From positions 1 to 49,458 of the forward strand of contig CALRHR010000005.1 of NCBI GenBank assembly GCA_943359485.1: a stretch of DNA of 49,458 nt, in the 5' to 3' direction. Below, in pieces: positions 9,425-48,130 of the stretch. The number at the start of each line of letters is the position of its first letter. Position 1 is the stretch's first letter. The translations under genes and the position numbers were made by a program. The DNA comes from Candidatus Nomurabacteria bacterium. Lineage in GTDB: Bacteria; Patescibacteriota; Minisyncoccia; Phycocordibacterales; UBA9973. The notes below the pieces were generated by a model that ran no database searches, was not told the DNA's origin, and was given only the letters and a program-made list of their open reading frames with translations.

Positions 9425-9453
9425 TTGACAGTGAACGAGCGTTCACTTATACT
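9425..9453 (+). promoter_or_regulatory. LexA-operon promoter with embedded LexA-type operator
   Basis: TTGACA (9425-9430), exactly 17 nt, and TATACT (9448-9453) form one of the best promoters in the window. The spacer is almost entirely the palindrome GTGAACG-AG-CGTTCAC (9431-9446), which contains the GAAC-N4-GTTC core of Gram-positive-type LexA boxes. A repressor bound there would block polymerase directly, and lexA is the second gene downstream, so autorepression is the natural reading. Confidence 0.8.
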
Positions 9454-9490: not shown

Positions 9491-9536
9491 GTCGCGTTTT
9501 AATGGACAATTACGCGACACGATTTTGCAAAATCGC
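9491..9536 (+). promoter_or_regulatory. Two-hairpin leader element, copy 1 (LexA operon)
   Basis: 46 nt ending directly before the ATG at 9537. The first stem pairs GTCGCGT with ACGCGAC across a 14-nt loop; the second is the palindrome CGATTTTGCAAAATCG. Copy 2 before rplW differs at three positions, two of which are partners in stem 1 (T-A here, C-G there). No SD separates it from the start codon. Likely a translational control structure; unproven. Confidence 0.7.
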
Positions 9537-9758
9537 ATGTCACAGTCACAATATTTAAAAATGTTAGAGAAGGAAATACAGAAGATCAATCAAAAGATTG
9601 ATTTTAAGATTTTAAAGGGAGAATCTTATTGTAAAGAATCTAGGGATCATAAACTGCTTCTACAGAAAGTTCGTTTTCACACTAGGAGGGGTTTGATAAG
9701 TAGATTTGTGAATTTCTTTTTTCGGAAGAATATTTTGAGAACAAATTCATATGCGTAA
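9537..9758 (+). CDS. Small basic protein cotranscribed with LexA
   Basis: 73 residues from the ATG at 9537, chosen because the two-hairpin leader ends exactly there; a TTG four codons earlier lies inside the hairpin. It starts MSQSQYLKMLEKEIQKINQK, a helical segment, and then becomes strongly basic (KVRFHTRRGLISRFVNFFFRK), which could bind nucleic acid or a membrane surface. No family recognised. Its 3' end overlaps lexA by 8 nt (ATGCGTAATGA), so the two are translationally coupled and both under the LexA-type operator. A DNA-damage-related role is inferred from position only. Confidence 0.6.
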   Translation: MSQSQYLKMLEKEIQKINQKIDFKILKGESYCKESRDHKLLLQKVRFHTRRGLISRFVNFFFRKNILRTNSYA

Positions 9759-10329
9759 TGAACATCAAAATAAGATAGAATCTTTTTATTCAAGCAACAA
9801 AAGAATGCCCACATATTCAGAGATGATGAAGCTCTTTGGTTTCAAATCTAAGAATGCTGTTTTTAAAGTGGTGGAGAAATTGATGGAGGCAGGACTCGTG
9901 GCGAAAGACCACCTCGGCAGATTGATTCCAACTGGAATTTTTACAGAAAGTCTCACCAGTGTGCCTATGCTTGGTTTTGTAACTGCTGGATTCCCAGCGA
10001 CGGTGGAAGAAGAGTTGGCAGATATGGTGAATTTGGATGATCTACTTATAAAAAATAAACCACTGACTTACATGCTCGAAGTAGATGGAGATTCGATGAT
10101 AGATGCACACATCGAGCGTGGAGATATGGTGTTAGTTGAAAAAACAAATCAAGCTAAAGATATGGACATAGTCATAGCTGAAGTTGACGGAGAGTTTACT
10201 ATGAAATATTTTCGCAAAGATGGTGTTAAAATTTGGCTCGAACCAGCCAACAAAAACTATTCTCCGATATACCCTGAGCACAGTCTGAATGTAATAGCAG
10301 TTTTGAAGGCGGTGATTAGGAAATACTAG
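9751..10329 (+). CDS. lexA: LexA-family repressor, S24 self-cleaving peptidase
   Basis: 192 residues, usual LexA length. An N-terminal winged-helix DNA-binding domain (about 18-60, RMPTYSEMMKLFGFKSKNAV) leads to the S24 domain. Cleavage should occur at Ala79-Gly80 (VTAGFP); the catalytic pair is Ser115 (DGDSMID) and Lys152 (FTMKYF), so the autoproteolysis machinery is intact. LexA represses SOS genes and cleaves itself when RecA filaments form. A LexA-type palindrome lies in the promoter of its own operon. The start overlaps the small upstream gene; an intrinsic terminator follows directly. Confidence 0.92.
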   Translation: MRNEHQNKIESFYSSNKRMPTYSEMMKLFGFKSKNAVFKVVEKLMEAGLVAKDHLGRLIPTGIFTESLTSVPMLGFVTAGFPATVEEELADMVNLDDLLIKNKPLTYMLEVDGDSMIDAHIERGDMVLVEKTNQAKDMDIVIAEVDGEFTMKYFRKDGVKIWLEPANKNYSPIYPEHSLNVIAVLKAVIRKY

Positions 10330-10674: not shown

Positions 10675-10738
10675 AGGTGCTAGGCTTTAGGGTTTTAGGC
10701 TTTAGCGTTCTTGCTAGGGCCTAGAGCCTAATGCCTAA
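10675..10738 (-). repeat. Heptad hairpin, TAGGC type, before hup
   Basis: Read on the reverse strand, the left arm is TTAGGCATTAGGCTCTAGGC and on (10738-10713) and the right arm is GCTAAAGCCTAAAACCC and on (10706-10675), ending 8 nt before the ATG. Orientation relative to its gene matches the copies on the forward strand. Confidence 0.8.
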
Positions 10739-22751: not shown

Positions 22752-22819
22752 TAGGCTTTAGGCATTTAGGCTTTAGCTTTTTATTTTTGAATTGCTAATA
22801 CCTAGCGCCTAGTGGCCTG
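22752..22819 (-). repeat. Heptad hairpin, TAGGC type, before nusA
   Basis: On the reverse strand the left arm (22819-22794) reads CAGGCCACTAGGCGCTAGG and on; the right arm (22777-22752) reads GCTAAAGCCTAAATGCC and on. It ends 3 nt before the ATG. Confidence 0.8.
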
Positions 22820-36309: not shown

Positions 36310-36319
36310 AACAAATAGA

Positions 36320-36365
36320 GTCGCGCTTCAATGGACAATTGCGCGACACGATTTTGCAAAATCGC
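36320..36365 (+). promoter_or_regulatory. Two-hairpin leader element, copy 2 (rplW)
   Basis: 46 nt ending directly before the rplW ATG. Stem 1 pairs GTCGCGC with GCGCGAC; stem 2 is the same palindrome CGATTTTGCAAAATCG as copy 1. Of three differences to copy 1, two keep the terminal stem pair (C-G instead of T-A) and one lies in the loop. Confidence 0.7.
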
Positions 36366-36635
36366 ATGACCACAATAATCAAAAATCCAAGAATTACCGA
36401 AAAAGCATCCAATGCCGTAGAGCAGAATGTTTATTCCTTTGATGTTTCGGCGGGAGCTAACAAAACGGAAATAAGAAAGGCAATTTTTTCCCTTTATAAA
36501 GTTAAACCAATAAAGGTAAATGTCTTGTCGGTGCCGAAGAAAAATATTATGTTCAAAGGGAAAAAGAGTGTAAGAGGCGGAGGTAGAAAAGCTTTAGTAT
36601 ATTTAAAAGAAGGAGACAAGATAGAATTTATTTAA
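36366..36635 (+). CDS. rplW: Ribosomal protein uL23
   Basis: 89 residues from the ATG at 36366 (MTTIIKNPRITEKASNAVEQ); an ATG nine codons earlier lies inside the leader hairpin and would give an untypical start. The core ANKTEIRKAIFSLYKVKPIK and KKSVRGGGRKALVYLKEGDK match uL23. It borders the exit tunnel and is the docking site for trigger factor and SRP; the tig gene of this genome retains the GFRKGKIP binding loop. The missing SD and the abutting hairpins suggest regulated initiation. Confidence 0.95.
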   Translation: MTTIIKNPRITEKASNAVEQNVYSFDVSAGANKTEIRKAIFSLYKVKPIKVNVLSVPKKNIMFKGKKSVRGGGRKALVYLKEGDKIEFI

Positions 36636-36642
36636 TAGTAAA

Positions 36643-36719
36643 TTAGGCATTAGGCCCTAGGCGCTAGCGAATTCAAAAAGCTAAAGCCTAAAGCCTAAAG
36701 CCTAGAGCCTAGAGCCTAA
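36643..36719 (+). repeat. Heptad hairpin, TAGGC type, before rplB
   Basis: The left arm (36643-36668) begins TTAGGCATTAGGCCCTAGGC; the right arm (36680-36719) has five GCCTA units spaced 7 nt apart. It ends 3 nt before the ATG. The longest right arm in the window. Confidence 0.85.
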
Positions 36720-39160: not shown

Positions 39161-39228
39161 TTAGGCCCTAGGCGCTAGGCTCTAGCAAAACAAATGCTAA
39201 AGCCTAAAGCCTAAAGCCTAAAGCCTAA
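39161..39228 (+). repeat. Heptad hairpin, TAGGC type, before rpsC
   Basis: The left arm (39161-39186) begins TTAGGCCCTAGGCGCTAGGC; the right arm (39195-39228) has four regular GCCTAAA heptads. It starts 1 nt after the rplV stop codon and ends 4 nt before the rpsC ATG. Confidence 0.85.
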
Positions 39229-40843: not shown

Positions 40844-40913
40844 TTAGGCATTAGGTTTTAGGTATTAGCAAAATAAAAGCTAAAAGCCTAAAAGCCTAAA
40901 GCCTAGAGCCTAA
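40844..40913 (+). repeat. Heptad hairpin, TAGGC type, before rplN
   Basis: Left arm 40844-40869 (TTAGGCATTAGGTTTTAGG and on), right arm 40879-40913 (GCTAAAAGCCTAAAAGCC and on). It ends 4 nt before the ATG. Some right-arm units are 8 nt, showing unit-length drift. Confidence 0.85.
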
Positions 40914-45546: not shown

Positions 45547-45619
45547 TTAGGCATTAGGCCCTAGGCACTAGCAGAATTCAAAAAGCTAAAGCCTAAACTG
45601 CCTAAAGCCTAGAGCCTAA
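45547..45619 (+). repeat. Heptad hairpin, TAGGC type, before rpsH
   Basis: The left arm begins TTAGGCATTAGGCCCTAGGC (identical to the rplE and rplO copies over 26 nt). The right arm has four GCCTA units. It ends 4 nt before the ATG. Confidence 0.87.
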
Positions 45620-47689: not shown

Positions 47690-47759
47690 TTAGGCATTAG
47701 GCCCTAGGCACTAGCAAATCAAAAGCTAAAGCCTAAAGTCCTAAAGCCTAGAGCCTAAA
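47690..47759 (+). repeat. Heptad hairpin, TAGGC type, before rplO
   Basis: The left arm (47690-47715) is identical to those before rplE and rpsH. The right arm ends AAAGCCTAGAGCCTAA, 2 nt before the ATG. It occupies the place where rpmD would be. Confidence 0.87.
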
Positions 47760-48067: not shown

Positions 48068-48130
48068 CTAGGCATTAGGCGCTAGCAATTAAAAAAGCTA
48101 AAGCCTAAAGTCCTAAAGCCTAGAGCCTAA
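48068..48130 (+). repeat. Heptad hairpin, TAGGC type, before secY
   Basis: Left arm 48068-48086 (CTAGGCATTAGGCGCTAGC), one heptad shorter than the others; right arm about 48097-48130. It ends 3 nt before the ATG. Confidence 0.83.

Follow-up and report, generated by a model that had tools for sequence, protein, structure and literature searches.

The window analysed here, a 49,458-nt stretch that forms part of a 713-kb Patescibacteria genome, holds two copies of a 46-nt element, one in front of the lexA operon and the other between rplD and rplW, both ending on the base before an ATG (Table 1). The first gene of the lexA operon, which encodes 73 amino acids and overlaps lexA, has no Pfam match. 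The initial annotation had described the pair correctly: the copies show three differences, at element positions 7, 10 and 22, of which 7 and 22 are stem 1 partners that change together (T-A versus C-G), and the second part of each is a perfect 16-nt palindrome, CGATTTTGCAAAATCG, with 2 occurrences in the window. A 23-nt core of the element has exactly 2 sites in the genome and no third with up to 3 mismatches, and no curated family in Rfam matched the window at gathering thresholds. It was also true, as had been remarked, that neither gene has a Shine-Dalgarno sequence, but this is uninformative because such signals are rare here in general, with an SD-like motif within 25 nt before the start in only 3/45 window genes.

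Table 1. Element copies, adjoining genes and other features, in window coordinates except for the Y1 matches, which are given by contig.
Feature	Position	Strand	Description
lexA-operon promoter	9425-9453	+	sigma-70-type, TTGACA-17-TATACT; TTGACA 9425-9430, TATACT 9448-9453
LexA-type box	9431-9446	+	GTGAACGAGCGTTCAC, also written GTGAACGNNCGTTCAC; in promoter spacer
Element copy 1	9491-9536	+	GTCGCGTTTTAATGGACAATTACGCGACACGATTTTGCAAAATCGC, then ATG at 9537
Copy 1, stem 1	9491-9497 and 9512-9518 (arms), 9498-9511 (loop)		GGAC inside loop
Copy 1, linker, stem 2 (palindrome), spacer	9519, 9520-9535, 9536		linker A, spacer C
73-aa gene	9537-9758	+	first of lexA operon, overlaps lexA; ATG adjoins copy 1
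lexA	9751-10329	+	second gene of operon; Peptidase_S24 domain
rplD-rplW spacer	36310-36319	+	ten bases, AACAAATAGA; left of copy 2
Element copy 2	36320-36365	+	GTCGCGCTTCAATGGACAATTGCGCGACACGATTTTGCAAAATCGC, then ATG at 36366
Copy 2, stem 1	36320-36326 and 36341-36347 (arms), 36327-36340 (loop)		
Copy 2, linker, stem 2 (palindrome), spacer	36348, 36349-36364, 36365		linker A, spacer C
rplW	36366-36635	+	Ribosomal_L23; ATG adjoins copy 2
AAAGCCTA(A/G)AGCCTA repeat	36683-36718, 39199-39227, 40891-40912, 45604-45618, 47743-47757, 48115-48129	+	
AAAGCCTA(A/G)AGCCTA repeat	10681-10695, 22752-22766	-	
Y1 (RAYT-like) matches, this genome	G000:C1:98336, C9:6496, C7:33044, C4:29666		C4 below family cut-off

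The window pair belongs to a larger family of 45-48 nt elements with two hairpins, a 7-bp stem 1 whose loop contains GAC and a stem 2 formed by a short near-palindrome. A covariance model, built from 19 aligned copies that a core search had found in relatives, identified 11 clear copies in this genome at E<=2e-5, namely the window pair and 9 more diverged ones. In the 19 seed copies 98.8% of pairs are standard, a proportion that was far lower in controls slid out of register, and double changes occur in 6/13 pairs compared with 2.1 in shuffles. The structured two-hairpin element proposed at the outset is borne out by covariation in both stems, of which the compensatory change at positions 7/22 is a genuine part: 117 copies that adjoin an ATG (the ATG class) contain 129 double-changed cells against 26 in shuffles, and copies outside this class contain 103 against 30. 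The loop GAC is conserved in 115/122 ATG-class copies; a loop Shine-Dalgarno or CsrA-type ANGGA motif was considered and dropped, because GAC alone is nearly constant and about 40/122 loops lack GGAC.

The family is distributed patchily, even among members of one genus, with matches in 56/397 genomes at the level of the order and in 6/380 across the phylum. Three relatives examined closely have 15-33 matches each, at E up to 0.1 and with some weak matches among them. An exact 23-mer scan of genome contigs returned one match, a copy in a Nomurabacteria msrA gene, and the same scan of viral contigs returned none.

We read 200 distinct copies, 188 of them full length, and found an ATG 0-6 nt past stem 2 in 126/188, about one third having none in this range; these are the best-scoring copies, and diverged copies may therefore be placed differently. 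At exactly +1 nt an ATG is present in 100/188 copies where 3.0 are expected (binomial 3e-125, a nominal value that overstates the case because the copies are related). The constant distance to the ATG, which had been put forward as a check in relatives, holds across many genomes, and start-adjacency extends to distant families, where it is seen in every one of the three G811 copies read and in about one third of G532 copies. Nearly all of these ATGs open real ORFs and are not random intergenic triplets. The element is preceded at a distance of 3-6 nt by the end of a -10-like box in 24/122 copies, and at 0-14 nt by the stop codon of the gene ahead of it in about 33/112, such that the element often makes up the whole leader. 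Promoter function of the element itself was rejected, the -10 box often being upstream of it and many copies being intercistronic.

The genes that follow the element share no common function. Examples from this genome are rplW, the lexA operon, and genes for an RNase H, a SecF-like protein, a T4SS pilin, a HerA-like ATPase and a methyltransferase, among others, and the 117 proteins encoded after ATG-class copies represent 101 Pfam families, with no functional enrichment evident among them. A few chaperone, RNase and ribosomal-protein genes do recur, and the rate at which one gene reappears in separate families seems near to what a rough estimate gives for genes picked at random. These recurring genes, together with the strong covariation, the fixed spacing to the AUG and the conserved loop GAC, would suit a classical cis-regulatory RNA or operator, by means of which lexA and rplW would belong to one regulon under a single trans-acting factor, be it a protein, an RNA or a ligand. 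We regard this reading as highly improbable, given the unrelated downstream genes, the absence of the element from orthologs within the genus, and the occurrence of copies within coding sequences and within each other. The common regulator that the initial annotation had inferred from the shared leader is not supported, on the same grounds, and the lexA operon moreover has a LexA-type box of its own. That box sits in the promoter, apart from the element, and both promoter and box are conserved without the element in most lexA-operon loci read in the genus, which led us to discard the element as a LexA/SOS site.

Comparison of orthologous loci revealed empty sites. We read 30 loci each for rplW and the lexA operon within the genus, and in either set the element occurs once (1/30), both times in this genome, which also rules against a lexA-rplW leader shared by descent. 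In the nearest rplW ortholog (L102) the arrangement is TAG-CAAAACATC-ATG, compared with TAA-AACAAATAGA-(46 nt)-ATG here, and the other 29 lexA-operon loci reach their ATG without the element, most of them behind the same promoter. A third case is rplB, where the element is present in one relative (G009; L012/L074) and absent from all 30 other loci read in the genus. All three cases retain their original ATG, with the former spacer lying 5' of the element. Within one related family, three dnaJ orthologs carry TATAATAAG-element-ATG, which is to say a TATAAT-type box, AAG or AGG, the element and the ATG, while in dnaJ orthologs without the element a TATAAT-type -10 box lies 6-9 nt before the ATG, a near-leaderless arrangement (G119, G385, G364, G405; L291-L299). 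Losses were seen as well, with some ATG-class genes lacking the element in close relatives of genomes that have it.

Copies also reside within other copies and within genes. Nesting occurs in the stem 1 loop, twice in this genome (L055, L060). Ten insertions of 45 nt, which share a single phase, lie in frame within coding sequences, as does a copy of 46 nt in a second msrA gene; the hosts include recA, pgk, uvrB, ruvC, recJ, ksgA and msrA. Of these, recA, pgk, msrA and uvrB were named from the matches described below, and ruvC, recJ and ksgA by reading the protein sequence. The encoded peptides are typically (S/G)RA-MDGARHDSAES-like. In comparisons with solved MsrA and PGK structures the insert falls in a 13-residue gap, the RecA match to most solved chains ends abruptly at the insert, and at that point the UvrB match shows a local disturbance. 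The recJ copy of this genome (G000:C12:13707-13751; L054 288-332) is in frame and recurs at the same site in G009 (L219), an insertion either retained by descent or made twice. The initial annotation had held that many copies inside genes or at random positions would speak against its leader, and this came true in part, for copies do occur within genes and within other copies.

The element is thus dispersed and patchy, with empty orthologous sites, nested copies and in-frame intragenic copies, and it is biased towards start codons. Empty sites, nesting and in-frame intragenic copies are hallmark features of the palindromic elements of Rickettsia (Rickettsia palindromic elements, RPEs) and of miniature elements related to them (PMC10969869, PMC2229807, PMC3733652), and we consider it very probable that the two window leaders are recent copies of a non-autonomous, RPE/REP-like miniature mobile element for which residence at start codons is favoured, giving a structured leader. 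No lexA-rplW regulon is needed on this account and, since the element would be mobile DNA in front of unrelated genes, no lexA-rplW control circuit follows from the shared leader. The element is a new family in Patescibacteria of a generally known kind, unusual in that it prefers to end on the last base ahead of a start codon; the literature searched contained no description of anything similar from Patescibacteria.

Among known systems, RPEs are short palindromic non-autonomous repeats of about 100-150 bp with terminal inverted repeats, which occur both between and within genes and insert peptides in frame into conserved genes (PMC10969869, PMC2229807), and the uvrB gene of R. conorii hosts one (PMC3733652). 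Our element resembles them as a dispersed palindromic or hairpin repeat found in frame within coding genes, uvrB included, but is set apart by size and host description, being 45-48 nt long with two separate hairpins and residing in Patescibacteria; most of its copies abut start codons, a placement that we did not find in accounts of RPEs. REPs of the GTAG and CGTC families are palindromic, dispersed, tens of bases long and sometimes intragenic, including in DNA-repair genes (PMC3733652), and the element shares these features as well as patchiness with REPs and REPINs, whereas REPs lie mainly downstream of genes and the element immediately upstream of the ATG. MITEs such as ERIC, RUP and Correia/NEMIS are likewise non-autonomous and miniature, and some are transcribed into hairpins that affect the mRNA. 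The element is a third to half their length, and unlike them has no inverted repeat spanning its length and no detected target-site duplication. With structured translational leaders, including ribosomal-protein leaders and RNA thermometers, it has in common covarying hairpins directly before the AUG, but it is mobile, is not tied to one gene or regulon, and has no Rfam match in the window.

Mobilisation as a REP element by a RAYT/TnpA-REP (Y1 HUH) transposase would fit the hairpin architecture and the presence of Y1_Tnp genes in 22/32 genomes tested, with four matches in this genome. It nevertheless appears unlikely. The GTAG tag is absent (0/188) and CGTC is found at the 5' end of only 38/188 copies; Y1 (RAYT-type) transposases occur in genomes with and without the element, three element-rich genomes having no Y1 match and element-free genomes having several; and no copy flanks the Y1 gene in 10 neighbourhoods from four element-bearing genomes, where the nearest copies are about 1.7-1.8 kb away (in G009 and G019).

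How the miniature element comes to reside at start codons may be explained by insertion aimed at start sites or by selection for the leader arrangement. Insertion directed to start codons by an integrase, by an RNA guide or through coupling to transcription or translation, with the element functionally neutral once there, is a possibility that we hold with some doubt. It would explain the +1 spacing in 100/188 copies, the real ORFs behind nearly all such ATGs, and the retention of the original ATG with the old spacer on the 5' side at rplW, the lexA operon and rplB. Against it, about one third of copies have no ATG, intragenic insertions have no fixed right-hand flank, copies overall have no fixed left flank, and we detected no target-site duplication, flank identity being at the shuffled level for k=3-6. 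Plain targeting of the ATG triplet is weakened by the lack of a shared right flank among intragenic copies and by the fact that almost every start-adjacent ATG is a true start, and plain neutrality by the recurrence of the exact +1 spacing at dozens of unrelated genes.

Alternatively, insertion may be loosely specific and selection may keep start-adjacent copies as a portable translation-initiation leader, a tentative though plausible form of exaptation. An element before an ATG would become the mRNA leader, either as the entire 5' leader behind a -10 box or as the intercistronic spacer behind a stop codon, and its hairpins might absorb upstream RNA and leave the AUG relatively open. Genomes that make no use of Shine-Dalgarno signals could tolerate such a structured leader and might even benefit from it. 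The frequency with which the element is the entire leader is consistent with this, as is the covariation that holds the stems while their sequence drifts, for example at dnaJ in G246, G316 and G196. Predicted folding gives a pairing of about 0.88 for stem 1, and the AUG is predicted to be somewhat more open with the element (unpaired 0.58) than with the element removed (0.45), removal being the sole comparison. Weighing against a leader role, stem 2 is predicted to be only partly formed (0.44) and only moderately stable, some ATG-class genes have the element in one genome but not in a close relative, and hairpins this near to an AUG usually inhibit initiation. We infer from these models that the start-adjacent element may have a translational role. 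The broader proposition, that the element either inserts specifically at start codons or spreads through Patescibacteria as a portable SD-independent initiation leader that rewrites unrelated leaders and turns leaderless into structured-leader mRNAs, is one that we put forward with reservation.

Start-adjacent copies might instead be N-terminal coding insertions in the manner of RPEs, with translation starting upstream, for instance at an ATG that lies in frame 18 nt earlier. Most ATG-class copies have an in-frame ATG where stem 2 begins, and the intragenic copies keep the reading frame of the genes around them. However, a stop closes the frame across the element in 42/126 ATG-class copies, both window copies have ACG in place of the upstream ATG, and rplW, the lexA operon and rplB have their ancestral start at the ATG past the element, which together render this reading very unlikely. 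A uORF or N-terminal extension was also rejected, since ATC or ATT frequently stands in place of the loop ATG and one third of copies have a closed frame. In ATG-class copies with a T-A outer pair in stem 2, the upstream stretch reads ATG ATT TCG CAA AAT CAT ATG, and gene callers may be led to a false N-terminus (MISQNHM...); mis-annotated N-termini of this kind and false domain insertions may both be caused by the element.

In Patescibacteria genomes are very small, Shine-Dalgarno signals and genetic tools are both scarce, and little is known of how the ribosomes select a start codon. With a repeat family that lands time and again one base before the AUG, dozens of natural with/without pairs at orthologous genes become available, which allow one to ask what the leader does in these bacteria. 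In-frame palindromic insertions, which are rare, extend with this element from Rickettsia and kin to another phylum, where the hosts include the DNA-repair genes recA, uvrB, recJ and ruvC.

A second, unrelated repeat, composed of AAAGCCTA(A/G)AGCCTA units, occurs immediately before numerous start codons, chiefly those of the ribosomal-protein operon, with 15 matches against 0 expected. Leaders in the genus seem to collect repeat families: still other repeats are found in the lexA-operon leaders of relatives (L264, L266, L268, L272, L280, L283) and in one rplW leader (L108), an example being TACCCCTACCC..CCTCCCCCTA..TAGGGGGAGGAG..AGGAGGGGGTA.
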